Notes under the pieces: generated by a model
What the model was told of the DNA's origin: nothing
The model's input: the letters and a program-made list of their open reading frames with translations, nothing else
Database searches by the model: none
Virus record (IMG/VR): IMGVR_UViG_3300017593_000524
Coordinates: 1-30,198 of that record
DNA: 30,198 nt
Source of the DNA: a virus
Reading direction: 5' to 3' (one strand)
Made by a program: the position numbers and the translations under genes
In this document: positions 10,078-30,198 of the stretch, one piece after another
How the letters are laid out: each line of letters opens with the position of its first letter
How positions within the stretch are numbered: the first letter of the stretch is position 1

Positions 10078-10653
10078 CTATAATTTTTTTGCTTTATTTC
10101 CTGTATATTTTTCCCATCTTTCTATTATTACTGAACAATATTTTGGGTCTATTTCCATCATGTAACATATACGGTTCAATTGTTCACAGGCTATAAGGGT
10201 TGAACCTGAACCGCCGAATAAATCTATAATTTTTTCTCCTTCATTACTAAATTTTTTAATAAAGAATTCAATTAATCGCACTGGCTTTTGCGTCGGATGT
10301 ATTCTTTTTTTAGTATCTTCTTTAGACAAACCAAAAATTCCTTTCCATAATACCCTTATTATTTGGCGTTTATGTTTAGTTCTACTCCAACATAGTTCAA
10401 AGTTGCTTCCGTATTGTTTTTCATAGGAGGAATTAGGACTAATTCCTCCTTCTGTTTTATCCCAAACAAACCAACTACCCTTATTTTTATTTGGAATATT
10501 TTCAGCATAATAGTCAGCACCCCACCAAAATTGTTCTTTACAATAATCAAATAATTTTATAAGTGGAGTGGGATTAAATGGGATGTCATCTCCAATTATT
10601 TTTGAATATTTTTTTCCTCGCCCAATACCTTTCATAAAGGTGTCCAGTGTCAT
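10078..10653 (-). pseudogene. Beheaded beta-class DNA methyltransferase (motif IV missing)
   Basis: 191 residues. It has the C-terminal signature of beta-class N4/N6 DNA methyltransferases: HPTQKP at residues 119-124, SAM-binding motif I DLFGGSGS at 144-151, and EIDP at 167-170. In this class the catalytic D/N/S-PPY motif precedes the HPTQKP part, normally just before a segment like GIGRGKKYS. Here that segment is at residues 9-17 but preceded by TLDTFMK, with no PPY in any upstream frame. The lost N-terminus coincides with the 3' end of the upstream peptidase-like gene, which overlaps by 68 bases. The gene is AT-richer than its neighbours, suggesting recent acquisition. It is probably catalytically dead, or an assembly chimera. 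Confidence 0.75.
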
Positions 10654-11178: not shown

Positions 11179-11194
11179 TATAAAACAATATAAA
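11179..11194 (-). promoter_or_regulatory. Early-type promoter element, copy 1
   Basis: TTTATATTGTTTTATA on the minus strand, identical over 16 bases to 12375-12390 and, with two extra bases, to 18393-18410. It lies four bases after the end of the preceding gene and about 36 nt before the ATG at 11143. Confidence 0.6.
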
Positions 11195-12374: not shown

Positions 12375-12390
12375 TATAAAACAATATAAA
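12375..12390 (-). promoter_or_regulatory. Early-type promoter element, copy 2
   Basis: TTTATATTGTTTTATA on the minus strand. The TATA half ends about 20 nt before the ATG at 12352. It lies just after the previous stop codon, as in copies 1 and 3. Confidence 0.65.
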
Positions 12391-13061: not shown

Positions 13062-13078
13062 AAAAAATCAAAAAAAAA
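13062..13078 (-). terminator. U-tracts after the MarR-like gene
   Basis: The transcribed strand after the stop at 13079 carries nine T then six T, followed directly by a new TATA box. Confidence 0.5.
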
Positions 13079-13453
13079 TCAAATTATGGAGTAGATTTTC
13101 TCCCATTCCTTAAGTGCCTGAATTCCCTTTTCCGTCAGTCTTATATACCTTTTGTTTGTAGGTTTCTCTCTTCCCTTCCTTGTGGTCTTGGTTTTTTTGG
13201 TAATTACCAGTCCTTCCCTCTCAAATTGCTTTATGGTGTTGGAGACAAACGGATAACTGAGTCCTGTTGAGTATCTGATTTCCATTAGGGTCCTCTCCCT
13301 GAAGTCGTTGTTTAGTGCCTTAAGGATTTTGAATTCCTTTTGGCTTATGTAAATGTGTGGTGCCTTCAAGCCTTTGAGTTGCCTGAATAAATAGGTTCGG
13401 TAGTGGTAGGTTTTCCCCTCTCTCCAGCACTCCCAGGTTCTTCTTGTTATCAT
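13079..13453 (-). CDS. MarR-like winged-helix regulator
   Basis: 124 residues from the ATG at 13453 (MITRRTWECWREG), two bases after the previous stop; an ATG at 13465 lies inside the upstream gene and is less likely. From residue 35 it has a clear MarR-type winged helix: ISQKEFKILKALNNDF, recognition helix LSYPFVSNTIKQFEREGLV, a basic wing (TKTTRKGREKPTNKRYI) and RLTEKGIQALKEWEK, the hallmark end of the fold. Probable transcription regulator of the viral early or late genes; no ligand pocket can be judged. Transcription ends in U-tracts. Confidence 0.75.
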   Translation of the reverse strand: MITRRTWECWREGKTYHYRTYLFRQLKGLKAPHIYISQKEFKILKALNNDFRERTLMEIRYSTGLSYPFVSNTIKQFEREGLVITKKTKTTRKGREKPTNKRYIRLTEKGIQALKEWEKIYSII

Positions 13454-13455
13454 AC

Positions 13456-14313
13456 TCAGTAACAAGGGTCCGCTTTCTCTATTATCCTTCCGTCTGGGGT
13501 GGCCACCTCCCAGACAATCACCAGGCCGTAATCGCTCCCCTCGTTATATCCTCCAAGTCCATACGCTCGTAACATCTCGTTGTTACTCGGGTCGTCCCCG
13601 TCGAACATTCCCACTCTTCTAATTGTTACTTCCTTTCCCGTTCTTTTTGCTTCTTCTAATGCCTCTTTCTTTCTTCTTTCATACTCCTCCTGTTTTTTCC
13701 TCCTCTTCTCTTCCCGCTCCGCCGTGTGTTTTTCGTATTGCTCTATTTCTTCTCTGAACATTTCCTCCAACTGCTCGAGCGTGAATTCTTTTCCTTCCTC
13801 ATATTCCTTTGCATCTATGTATTCGTCGAGGTGCCATTTGTCCTTGTTGAATTTTTTAACCGCTTCTTTCAGTTTCTCATATTTCTTCTCTTCTTCCTCC
13901 AACATCTCCCTGTTTGGCATGAACACTTTTGCCGTGTAATACATGTCCAATAGTCTCAGGCTTTCTTCCCTGACGATGAATCTCAACGGAATGGATTCAA
14001 GGAGTTCCCGGTGCAATTGTCTGTTTTTCTTTCTGATTTCCTCCTGCAAATCCACCAGTTTTTTCCAGTCCTCCTCGCTGATTGTGATGTATATGTCCCC
14101 TTTTCTTCCGAAGAGGTTATTGTCAAGGTTGCAGAAATGGATTGTGTATTGGCCTTTGATGTATTTCAGTTTCAATAGTTCCTTAACTCCGTTTACTTCC
14201 GCAGAAAGGTTGAAGTATGTGTCTTTCTTCCCATACTTTTGGATTTCCGTCTTCTCAAGGTCGATTTTCACTTCTATGTCCTTATTTTTCCCTCCTATTA
14301 TTTTATCTATCAT
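13456..14313 (-). CDS. Large coiled-coil hypothetical protein, 285 aa
   Basis: The ATG at 14313 overlaps the stop of the short gene before it. Residues 1-85 are beta-rich (DIEVKIDLEKTEIQ, YFNLSAEVNG, YTIHFCNLDNNLFG, GDIYITISEED). Residues about 85-235 form a long charged coiled coil (for example EEKKYEKLKEAVKKFNKDKW, EKRRKKQEEYERRKKEALEE). The C-terminal 50 residues are a small Gly/Asp-rich domain (DGDDPSNNEMLRAYGLGG, LVIVWEVATPDGRIIE). There is no nucleotide-binding or catalytic motif. I recognise no family. Position in the early/DNA block suggests a replication or host-interaction accessory. Confidence 0.7.
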   Translation of the reverse strand: MIDKIIGGKNKDIEVKIDLEKTEIQKYGKKDTYFNLSAEVNGVKELLKLKYIKGQYTIHFCNLDNNLFGRKGDIYITISEEDWKKLVDLQEEIRKKNRQLHRELLESIPLRFIVREESLRLLDMYYTAKVFMPNREMLEEEEKKYEKLKEAVKKFNKDKWHLDEYIDAKEYEEGKEFTLEQLEEMFREEIEQYEKHTAEREEKRRKKQEEYERRKKEALEEAKRTGKEVTIRRVGMFDGDDPSNNEMLRAYGLGGYNEGSDYGLVIVWEVATPDGRIIEKADPCY

Positions 14314-14410
14314 GTTCCCTTCTAATTATGATAACTTCTCCCTTCCTCTCCACCGAGCATTTGTTCCCGAGTTCCTGCTCGGCTTCATTAAAAAAGGATT
14401 TCGCTGTCAT
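14303..14410 (-). CDS. Micro-ORF of 35 aa between two coupled genes
   Basis: Translation from the ATG at 14410 gives MTAKSFFNEAEQELGNKCSV then ERKGEVIIIRREHDR and TAA. It overlaps both the upstream membrane gene (ATGA) and the start of the 285-aa gene by 11 bases, so it fills the gap exactly. The pattern of helix followed by strand is protein-like. No family recognised. A coupled overlap at both ends is the main evidence that it is translated. Confidence 0.5.
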   Translation of the reverse strand: MTAKSFFNEAEQELGNKCSVERKGEVIIIRREHDR

Positions 14411-14577
14411 TTCTTTTCCCCGTTCCATATCTTCTTCGCTCCGCTGAACACCGATTTCGCCAGCGTGTATATTATCCATAAGACTACTAAAGTGACCAAA
14501 ATGCTCCCCGTTGAATCCAATAAGTGCAGTCCTATCTCTCCAAATGCTTTAATTATACTTATAGTTCCTTCTAACAT
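14407..14577 (-). CDS. Single-pass membrane microprotein, 56 aa
   Basis: From the ATG at 14577 the protein reads MLEGTISIIKAFGEIGLHLL then a hydrophobic stretch (SILVTLVVLWIIYTLA, residues 30-45) and a basic end (SVFSGAKKIWNGEKK). A GGTGAGG ribosome binding site lies just upstream, directly after the three-hairpin RNA candidate. It could be a holin-like or membrane regulatory peptide. Its start codon lies 20 nt beyond the last hairpin of that RNA, so its translation may be affected by the structure. Confidence 0.55.
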   Translation of the reverse strand: MLEGTISIIKAFGEIGLHLLDSTGSILVTLVVLWIIYTLAKSVFSGAKKIWNGEKK

Positions 14578-14596
14578 TATGCCTCACCTTTTTTTT

Positions 14597-14698
14597 GCGG
14601 GAGTTCCACCCGCCACCCGTCTGGAAGGTTGGCGCTTCGCCTTCCTTCATACGGTCTCTCACTTCCCCCGTTCAGCCGTGACTGAGCGGGATTGGAAG
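14597..14698 (-). ncRNA. GC-rich three-hairpin structured RNA candidate
   Basis: A strikingly GC-rich 102-base island between two genes on the minus strand. Read on minus: hairpin 1 has CTTCC pairing GGAAG outside CCCG pairing CGGG and TCAG pairing CTGA (loop TCACGG). Hairpin 2 has ACC pairing GGT and GT pairing AC outside GAAGG pairing CCTTC, symmetric AA/AA, then GGCG pairing CGCC with loop AAG. Hairpin 3 is GCGGG pairing CCCGC with a seven-base loop TGGAACT. About 70% of bases pair. It does not fit tRNA, RNase P, SRP or group II domain V. It could be an intercistronic element, riboswitch-like leader or separate small RNA. The pairs are seen; the function is unknown. Confidence 0.6.
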
Positions 14699-14700
14699 AA

Positions 14701-15057
14701 TCAAAAATCAAAAACAAAACCATGTTCAAGTAATATTTGTTCTGCTATTTCTTTTGTTTCCCTTGAACCAACCACCTCTGCTTCTAATTTGTCGTAGGAA
14801 ATATCCATATCTATTTTCATGATTTCTTTCATTCCTCTTGGACTCACTAAATCTATATAATAGACGATTTCTCTAGCGGCGTAGCCATCTCTGTCGTTCC
14901 AGGTAGGATTTCCATTAGATTGGAACTCCCTAATAATGCTTCTTACATCGTAGCCTGCTTTTTTCAAGCGGGCTATGATTTCTTGAACAGGAGCGTCGTC
15001 GCTCCCCACTTGCAAAGACAGGAAATCCTCCACCAAAAAGCCGTGCATCTCTCTCAT
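14701..15057 (-). CDS. Hypothetical protein, 118 aa
   Basis: A good GGTGAT ribosome binding site precedes the ATG at 15057, and the gene overlaps the stop of the preceding one by four bases. The protein is mixed alpha/beta: LQVGSDDAPVQEIIARLKKA, IIREFQSNGNPTWNDRDGYA, IVYYIDLVSPRGMKEIMKID, AEVVGSRETKEIAEQILLEH. The repeated beta-alpha units suggest a compact two-domain fold of ferredoxin type. No cysteines or catalytic motifs. No family recognised. It is the last gene before the three-hairpin RNA. Confidence 0.6.
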   Translation of the reverse strand: MREMHGFLVEDFLSLQVGSDDAPVQEIIARLKKAGYDVRSIIREFQSNGNPTWNDRDGYAAREIVYYIDLVSPRGMKEIMKIDMDISYDKLEAEVVGSRETKEIAEQILLEHGFVFDF

Positions 15058-15245: not shown

Positions 15246-15264
15246 ATATATAAATGTTTTTAAA

Positions 15265-15274
15265 ATATTTATAG
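15265..15274 (-). promoter_or_regulatory. TATA box for the 15054-15245 operon
   Basis: ACTATAAATA on the minus strand, about 20-30 nt before the ATG at 15245. Confidence 0.45.
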
Positions 15275-18111: not shown

Positions 18112-18253
18112 TTTCTCTCACCTTAATCCTTTTAACTGAATTGTCTTTACCTAATAAGAGAATATCCGTTACTAAATGCTCTTTGTCAAAGTCGTTCATC
18201 TCATTAATTATTTTTAATTCTTCTTCCATATCTTTCAATTTTTTCTCAGTCAT
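18104..18253 (-). CDS. Small leading protein of the 16-18 kb operon, 49 aa
   Basis: From the ATG at 18253 the translation is MTEKKLKDMEEELKIINEMN, then DFDKEHLVTDILLLGKDNSV, KRIKVRENE and TGA at 18104. GGTGAGAG precedes the start. The start lies 20 nt beyond the closing stem of the structured leader, so initiation may be controlled by that RNA. Helical, charged, no family recognised. It could also serve as a leader peptide for the downstream genes. Confidence 0.5.
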   Translation of the reverse strand: MTEKKLKDMEEELKIINEMNDFDKEHLVTDILLLGKDNSVKRIKVRENE

Positions 18254-18272
18254 TTTCTCTCACCTTCTCCCC

Positions 18273-18358
18273 CAGCCCTCTGCAGTATGGCTCAAGGAAG
18301 TTTCTCCAAGAGCAGGCACCCACAAGGTATTCCCCTGGAGAGACTACCGCGAGGGCTG
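18273..18358 (-). ncRNA. Structured 5' leader RNA (riboswitch-like or small RNA)
   Basis: On minus the element is closed by a perfect eight-pair stem: CAGCCCTC (18358-18351) with GAGGGCTG (18280-18273), extended by CCC pairing GGG. Inside is a second stem (TCTC pairing GAGA, then CAGG pairing CCTG, with ACC pairing GGT at the tip) followed by a single-stranded CTTCCTTGAGCCATACTGCA. It lies 33 bases downstream of the TATA box of an early-type promoter and just before the GGTGAGAG of the first gene. It is GC-rich in an AT-rich background. It matches no riboswitch class I know. The stems are seen; regulatory role is inferred from position. Confidence 0.6.
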
Positions 18359-18392
18359 TTTGGGAAATCCATAAATAATCTTAATTTCCCAA

Positions 18393-18410
18393 TATAAAAA
18401 ACAATATAAA
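18393..18410 (-). promoter_or_regulatory. Early-type promoter element, copy 3, upstream of the structured leader
   Basis: TTTATATTGTTTTTTATA on the minus strand, the 16-base element of 11179 and 12375 plus two T. It lies five bases from the end of the preceding gene. Transcription would start near 18370, giving a leader of about 115 nt before the ATG at 18253. Confidence 0.65.
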
Positions 18411-18415
18411 CAAAA

Positions 18416-18487
18416 CTAAACCTTTTTGGATTTCCTCCTTCTCCTTTGCAGGGCTTTCTCTATTCTCTTGAACTCCTTGTTGTCCAT
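18416..18487 (-). CDS. Basic micro-ORF, 23 aa
   Basis: MDNKEFKRIEKALQRRRRKS then KKV and TAG, starting two bases after the stop of the 75-aa winged-helix gene. It is strongly basic. It sits in-operon and ends right before the early-type promoter. With only 23 codons the support is weak; it may be untranslated 3' sequence. Confidence 0.3.
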   Translation of the reverse strand: MDNKEFKRIEKALQRRRRKSKKV

Positions 18488-18489
18488 GT

Positions 18490-28925: not shown

Positions 28926-29660
28926 TTAATTAGTTTCTCCCGCCTCTATGCTCTCCGAAGTGTCTATGTGTCCTATTATCCCTTCTGATGTGTCTATCTC
29001 CCCCTCTAAAGACTTCTTTGAGAAGGAGGAACTATAAATAATTATACAGGCATTCGTTGTCTTCGTAAAGGAGGATGTGTAAACCACCCTTGCCACCAAA
29101 TTTTTTGTTTTGGTTATGGTGTAAACTATTCTTGAGGTCAGATTCTTGGTTTTCGTATATGAGATTTTTACCCTTGACAATGTGTTCTTTGTCTTTGCGA
29201 ATGTTATCTTTACCCTTGACATGAGGTCCTTGGTCTTGGTGAAGGTATATACGACCCTCGCTGTCAGTTCCTTGGTTTTTGTTATGGTATAAACAAGTCT
29301 TGAGGTCAGGTTTTTGGTCTTCTCTATGCTCCTCAAAATTCTTGCGGTCAGGTCTCTTGTCTTGAAATAGGTATAGACTATTCTTGCGGTTAGTTCCTTT
29401 GTTTTGATGAATGTTATCCTGATTCTTGAGGTCAGGTCTTTGGTTTTCTCTATGCTCCTCAATATCCTTGAGGTCAGGTCTTTTGTTTTTGTGTAGGAAT
29501 AGACTATTCTTGCTGTCAAGTCTTTGGTCTTGGAGAAAATGATTTTAATCCTTGAGGTCAGGTCTTTTGTTTTGGTAAATATTTTCAGTATTCTGGCTGT
29601 CAGGTCTTTGGTTTTCTTTCTTATTACCCAAAAAATCCCTCTCCCACTCCTCTCCGCCAT
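28926..29660 (-). CDS. Fibre-like protein with 14-residue repeats
   Basis: 244 residues. From about residue 15 to 205 it is built of a 14-residue unit, consensus KTKDLTSRIVYTFT, in 13 or so copies: TKTKDLTSRIKIIF, SKTKDLTARIVYSY, TKTKDLTSRILRSI, EKTKDLTSRIRITF, and so on. The DNA repeats with a 42-base period. Regular alternation of polar and beta-branched residues suggests a beta-helix or triple-stranded fibre. The N-terminus (MAERSGRGIFWVIRKK) may be the anchor; the C-terminus ends in an acidic part (DTSEGIIGHIDTSESIEAGE). Its place between adhesin and BppU-like protein suggests a tail fibre or spacer. Confidence 0.75.
   Translation of the reverse strand: MAERSGRGIFWVIRKKTKDLTARILKIFTKTKDLTSRIKIIFSKTKDLTARIVYSYTKTKDLTSRILRSIEKTKDLTSRIRITFIKTKELTARIVYTYFKTRDLTARILRSIEKTKNLTSRLVYTITKTKELTARVVYTFTKTKDLMSRVKITFAKTKNTLSRVKISYTKTKNLTSRIVYTITKTKNLVARVVYTSSFTKTTNACIIIYSSSFSKKSLEGEIDTSEGIIGHIDTSESIEAGETN
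28926..29660 (-). repeat. Tandem 42-base repeats within the fibre gene
   Basis: Variants of the 42-base unit GTCTTTGGT..AGGTC on plus recur about thirteen times between roughly 29050 and 29620, each encoding 14 residues. Confidence 0.75.
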
Positions 29661-29661
29661 G

Positions 29662-30198
29662 TTAGGTTATCTGGAAATATAGGTCAAAATATCCTGGTTG
29701 CGGGTTTGTTCCGTAGTCCGCCCAACAACTCATATAAAAATAACTATTCTGTGATAATGCCCCGTGAATCTGCTGGTAGGAGGAAGTAATCTCAATAGAA
29801 TCCGCATAGGTGTAGTCGTCATCGCATTTCAGGGTTATGTCCGTGAATGTCTGGTTCAATTTCATCTCCACTTTTGTCCCGTCCGCCGTTCCGTTGTTGG
29901 TTATCCTGAATATGGCTTGTGAGTTCCCTGCGTCCTGGTTTGTTGGCTCGCATTCTGTCTGTCCCGCCTCGCATCTGAATTCCAATGAGTTAGTATCGTT
30001 GAATAGTATCCATTCTGTCCCGTTCCATATCTCTATCTTTATGTCTGGTTTCCCCACTATAATTTCCCTCACTTCACTCTCCCCTTCATTCCCTGCTGTA
30101 TCATTCGCCCATCCGTAATAAGCGTAAGTCCCGTCTTCCAGGTCCGTTAAATTGTTGTAAAATCTCCATTGGGTTGAGTTGTATTTCTGGAATTCCGA
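29662..30198 (-). CDS. Surface protein / adhesin, C-terminal part (runs off right edge)
   Basis: Open from base 30198; about 178 codons to the stop at 29662. There is no start codon here: a GTG at 30072 is internal to the longer frame. It begins in an Ig-like repeat (YNSTQWRFYNNL, DGTYAYYGWANDTAGNEGES), the same style as the end of the fragment at 1-2225, then a second beta-rich segment (IKIEIWNGTEWILFN, CEPTNQDAGNSQAIFRITNN, YFYMSCWADYGTNPQPGYFD). Nothing follows but the fibre gene. Most simply it is the end of the adhesin that begins at 2225, separated by missing sequence. The join is inferred. Confidence 0.65.
   Translation of the reverse strand, partial: SEFQKYNSTQWRFYNNLTDLEDGTYAYYGWANDTAGNEGESEVREIIVGKPDIKIEIWNGTEWILFNDTNSLEFRCEAGQTECEPTNQDAGNSQAIFRITNNGTADGTKVEMKLNQTFTDITLKCDDDYTYADSIEITSSYQQIHGALSQNSYFYMSCWADYGTNPQPGYFDLYFQIT

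Follow-up and report, generated by a model that had tools for sequence, protein, structure and literature searches.

The stretch analyzed here (the window) is the whole virus record IMGVR_UViG_3300017593_000524, 30,198 bases long, in which all clearly coding genes are found on the minus strand. A run of overlapping genes is interrupted there by a GC-rich island, and a second structured island lies elsewhere in the record. The features considered below, all on the minus strand, are as follows.

15247 to 15271: A+T-rich promoter-like boxes from a pattern scan, TTTAAAAA at 15264 and TTTATATA at 15254
14701 to 15057: 118-aa open reading frame (ORF) upstream of the island, with no family and no relatives found
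14700 to 14719: T-rich tract TTTTGTTTTTGATTTTTGAT spanning the stop codon of the 118-aa ORF, 15 T in 20 bases, archaeal terminator-like
14597 to 14698: GC-rich three-hairpin island, 63% GC, predicted to fold, no Rfam match
14662 to 14698: predicted hairpin 1, arms CUUCC/GGAAG, CCCG/CGGG and UCAGU/GCUGA, -17.6 kcal/mol (plus strand -20.4)
14617 to 14654: predicted hairpin 2, interrupted by an AA/AA internal loop, -16.2 kcal/mol (plus strand -18.1)
14597 to 14613: predicted hairpin 3, 5-bp stem and 7-base loop, -8.0 kcal/mol
14583 to 14596: unpaired A8 followed by the Shine-Dalgarno sequence GGTGAG of the ORF starting at 14577, read from the sequence
14407 to 14577: 56-aa ORF that opens the downstream block and has a single hydrophobic, membrane-like stretch, codon score in the coding range
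13063 to 13082: T-rich tract behind the wHTH gene 13079-13465, closing the downstream block, 16 T in 20 bases
18273 to 18358: second GC-rich structured island, predicted branched fold closed by CAGCCCUC/GAGGGCUG

The segment 14597-14698 is the most GC-rich stretch of 102 bases in the record, at 63% against a mean of 41% (standard deviation 7%), which confirms the position and the GC contrast noted in an earlier reading by a model that had seen the sequence only. It fills a gap of 123 bases (14578-14700, 57% GC), whereas the other gaps of at least 15 bases have a pooled GC content of 23% and range from 6 to 34%, with the single exception of 18254-18489 at 43%. It is also the only sizeable gap within the run of overlapping same-strand genes. 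Upstream, the ORFs 15245-15054 and 15057-14701 overlap, and downstream so do all of 14577-14407, 14479-14303, 14313-13456 and 13465-13079, with products of 56 aa, 58 aa and 285 aa and a winged-helix protein. The start codon of a 63-aa ORF beside the promoter-like boxes is uncertain. No Pfam or PHROGs match was obtained for the 56-aa ORF, and a single-sequence AlphaFold model of the 118-aa product was uninformative (pLDDT 44). The sequence-only reading had placed the island between two coupled genes; it does lie between genes of one same-strand operon, but its two neighbors do not overlap each other and are set apart by the 123-base gap. The proposed proximity to the ribosome binding site of a membrane micro-protein was borne out, with GGTGAG directly downstream of the island and a hydrophobic stretch in the 56-aa ORF. 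The same GGTGAG also precedes 18253 and 18111, and GGTGA precedes 15057 and 4834.

Three adjacent minus-strand hairpins had been described for the island, and all were recovered, among them the hairpin with the AA/AA internal loop at 14654-14617 (GAAGG AA GGCG AAG CGCC AA CCTTC, closed by CCGT/ACGG) and the one with a 5-bp stem and 7-base loop at 14613-14597. The record has about 28 places with a hairpin of this AA/AA class, defined by 11-base arms and no more than 2 mismatches. What is exceptional about the island is its GC content together with three stems in a row and the position in a gap, and no single hairpin. Against dinucleotide shuffles, the minus-strand fold of the 102 bases reached moderate significance (z -2.5, P about 0.017); the plus strand folded better (-47.8, z -4.4, P about 0.002). 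On the minus strand hairpin 1 carries one C.A mismatch, which becomes a U-G pair in the plus-strand version, where nine pairs run unbroken, and a U-G pair at its loop end on the minus strand is lost on the plus strand. In the centroid of a 136-nt fold, A8-GGTGAG lies outside the hairpins and is mostly unpaired. A candidate pseudoknot between the hairpin-1 loop UCAC and a GUGA was dropped as it comprised four pairs only. Strong folds are found in other parts of the record as well. The segment 14905-15006, inside the 118-aa gene that precedes the island, is predicted to fold strongly into several hairpins on either strand (-41.6 and -36.3 kcal/mol). The record's only perfect 9-bp short-loop stem is at 10425, inside a methyltransferase gene, and the strongest minus-strand shuffle z-score (-6.7) belongs to the region 10400-10500.

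Of the only 15 minus-strand tracts with at least 13 T per 20 bases, 11 are located at gene 3' ends, which together account for 12% of the record. This concentration fits archaeal T-tract termination. The tract at 14719-14700 has the sequence marks of an archaeal internal operon terminator, being T-rich and located at a gene 3' end within an operon, and it is partly coding sequence of the upstream gene. A TATA pattern scan of 14300-15000 gave no match on either strand.

The second island overlaps the best-folding 102-base stretch of the minus strand (18263-18365, -48.6 kcal/mol) and is placed between the promoter-like motif TTTATATTGTTTT (18410-18398) and the GGTGAGAGAAAATG of a 49-aa ORF at 18253. 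Its TATA-like promoter spans 18410-18391, and the ORF begins with GGTGAG-ATG at 18253. The 13-base motif TTTATATTGTTTT occurs exactly three times in the record (11182-11194, 12378-12390 and 18398-18410), always on the minus strand and each time closely trailed by a second TATA-like box; 0.26 matches would be expected with up to one mismatch allowed. From this pattern, the three sites probably represent a viral promoter family. The two islands are not alike in sequence and are alike in placement, each combining a T-rich tract, a GC-rich structure of about 100 bases, GGTGAG and a tiny ORF. At the second island, a short frame starts from an ATG about 26 bases past the TATA box (MDFPNSPRGSLSRGIPCGCLLLEKLP) and is possibly a leader peptide.

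The explanation that we favor, with middling confidence, is that the island, situated at a partial internal terminator, is an intercistronic leader structure that sets expression of the genes downstream. Such a control element was one of three options raised by the sequence-only reading, and it fits best with a compact same-strand operon, a T-tract upstream, an open GGTGAG downstream and no consensus promoter nearby. We favor it because the island occupies the only sizeable gap among overlapping genes and is far richer in GC than other gaps, because the T-tract sits at the stop codon while the TATA scan of 14300-15000 was blank and the gap carries no coding signal, and because the second island is similarly placed. 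Counted against it are the modest minus-strand energy, the better fold of the plus strand and the partly coding nature of the T-tract. The minus-strand operon would probably begin at the promoter-like boxes near 15250 and end with the T-tract at 13082. At the T-tract of the 118-aa gene, RNA polymerase may partly end, or the transcript may be partly cleaved, which would yield two expression levels. Read-through transcripts, or a downstream cleavage product, would then start with the hairpins, which may guard the 5' end against 5'-3' decay and prevent upstream sequence from pairing with the ribosome site. The membrane micro-protein block could thereby be expressed at its own level. In a more specific and, to our mind, improbable version, the island would be an exonuclease-blocking viral leader in archaea: cleavage at the T-tract and hairpins that stop 5'-3' decay would turn the output of one promoter into two separately stable mRNAs, with 18273-18358 as a second such leader on a primary transcript.

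The host bears on this picture, and the sequence-only reading had called the virus archaeal. TATA-like boxes, T-tracts at gene ends and TerL relatives in archaeal metagenome-assembled genomes (MAGs) are in line with that; a contig labelled Syntrophomonadaceae, which holds the best match to the major capsid protein (MCP) among cellular genomes (40% identity), is not. The TerL relatives were found on MAG contigs labelled Bathycorpusculum, Woesearchaeota and Nanoarchaeota and on one labelled Syntrophomonadaceae. Weak MCP matches are present in 42 of 257 genomes of the Bathycorpusculum class, whereas no other genome in the order of the Syntrophomonadaceae contig has the MCP. Because of this difference, the sequences point to a tailed virus that likely has an archaeal host. 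The Syntrophomonadaceae-binned contig (L078) carries a colinear head module (TerL, portal, Mu F, protease and MCP at 39-40%) and is possibly a misbinned virus, given that its order is otherwise devoid of the MCP. As for the record itself, it starts and ends inside an apparent single large repeat-rich virion gene (1-2231 and 29662-30198) whose ends do not join in frame; with both ends inside one apparent gene, it is probably a circularly permuted genome minus a short piece. An ORF at 28926-29660 is made of repeated units such as KTKDLTSRI and perhaps encodes a fibrous or tail-associated protein.

We looked for known RNAs and for relatives of the locus. The island had been described as unassigned, and this held: at the gathering cut-off Rfam gave no match in the whole window, at a permissive threshold the island gave chance scores only (the best, flpD, at 19 bits versus 40), and ARAGORN found no tRNA or tmRNA. 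TerL and MCP scans gathered 81 related loci, and none of these has a gene related to any of those between 13079 and 18860. Protein scans combined with tblastn or genome searches returned no usable relative of four operon genes. One weak hit in one of the 257 genomes (L100, E 0.003) was taken as chance, as it matches a cellular frame that, from its motifs, we take to be methyltransferase-like. The close relatives L008 and L010 (from IMG samples 3300021483 and 3300005265), mostly 93-96% identical in head genes, are short and end before the operon. One-sequence covariance models of both islands were run against about 1.06 Mb of related loci, and that of 14597-14698 also against 36 whole virus records and the 257 genomes; they recovered nothing beyond the window itself and one chance-level match. 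Some gaps of TerL relatives do contain GC islands, none of them similar to 14597-14698. The related viral contigs in which compensatory changes were to be sought thus yielded no homologous locus of the island in about 80 TerL-related loci.

These searches bear on a second option of the sequence-only reading, a free-standing non-coding RNA. Such a trans-acting viral RNA of about 100 nt, cut from the operon mRNA or made from a non-consensus promoter, would act on the host or the virus, for example in defence or packaging. The strong GC contrast and the compact three-stem shape speak for it, and there is a precedent in Acidianus bottle-shaped virus, where a putative non-coding RNA has been proposed to serve packaging (PMC5882107). 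It is possible, but with no promoter consensus nearby on the minus strand, no Rfam match and no relative found by model or by DNA, we consider it unlikely.

The better fold of the opposite strand, with its nine unbroken pairs in hairpin 1, raises another reading, in which the functional entity would be a plus-strand antisense RNA, or a DNA hairpin or cruciform bound by protein, and the minus-strand fold only its mirror. Against it, each strand gains one wobble pair at a place that is mismatched on the other, and the pattern scan of 14300-15000 showed no TATA match on the plus strand, in a record whose clearly coding genes all lie on the minus strand. We rate this reading as quite improbable.

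A small coding sequence was considered as well. Two frames are open through the gap and are placed like real overlapping genes. One, at 14729-14577, has 50 aa and ends on a stop that overlaps the following start codon (TAATG); the other, of 33 aa, begins at ATG 14650 after a weak Shine-Dalgarno-like AAGTGAGAG. Their codon scores (-0.36 for the gap part of the former and -0.13 for the latter) fall at or under the range that most genes occupy, 14729 has no Shine-Dalgarno sequence in front of it, and 63% GC is far above the GC content of the virus's genes. Across all frames of the gap no coding signal was detected (best frame -0.36, compared with a coding 5th percentile of -0.09), and codon usage in the gap does not resemble that of the virus's genes, so that a small protein gene here is very unlikely.

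Finally, a small repeat that is mobile or was acquired recently (derived from a MITE, a REP element or the host), the remaining option of the sequence-only reading, would agree with the foreign-looking composition but is the least credible, as the island is single-copy in the record and flanked by no direct repeats, only by a 9-nt A/T inverted pair, its exact hairpin-2 core pattern is absent from IMG/VR and GTDB contigs, blastn gave no match in phages and plasmids, and its matches in the 257 genomes (class of a Bathycorpusculum MAG) span 17-29 bases at E-values expected by chance. The several copies, terminal inverted repeats and target duplications of a mobile repeat, MITE or REP element were thus not seen in the record or in these genomes of what is only a candidate host class.

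Returning to the intercistronic leader, several known systems offer partial parallels. In Methanococcus maripaludis, internal termination lowers the expression of downstream operon genes and so sets operon gene levels (PMC10450193). The viral locus resembles these internal operon terminators (ioTTS) in having, within an operon, a T-rich tract at the end of one gene and a further block of genes after it; unlike them, the viral tract precedes three GC-rich hairpins, and the words "hairpin" and "stem-loop" are absent from that paper (PMC10450193). E. coli has RNA structures that guard operon segments against decay (PMC5927463). Here too, stable stems would mark the boundary of operon segments with possibly different levels, but the E. 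coli structures are bacterial and mostly within coding regions, whereas the island is non-coding and probably archaeal. It is accepted that GC-rich gaps mark structured RNA in AT-rich genomes, and searching for such gaps is an established discovery route (PMC6429828). The island shares with such gaps its setting in an AT-rich, short-gap genome, yet it is an orphan for which no homologues were found and no structural family can be defined. Racr RNA anti-CRISPRs are likewise short structured RNAs in virus genomes; they mimic a single CRISPR repeat and often lie directly behind a promoter (PMC10651486), whereas the island consists of three different hairpins, has no promoter match and gave no CRISPR-repeat-like multi-copy match in the 257 genomes of what is only a candidate host class.

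Overall, the island is plausibly a candidate of a known kind, an orphan without a family. To our knowledge, few structured RNAs are known from archaeal viruses, and the island is a clean case on which to test the discovery of RNAs by GC islands in this group. Should it prove real, this uncultured and probably archaeal tailed virus would have two structured leader elements, of which the island is one, and the island would illustrate how the genes of a very compact viral operon come to be expressed at different levels.
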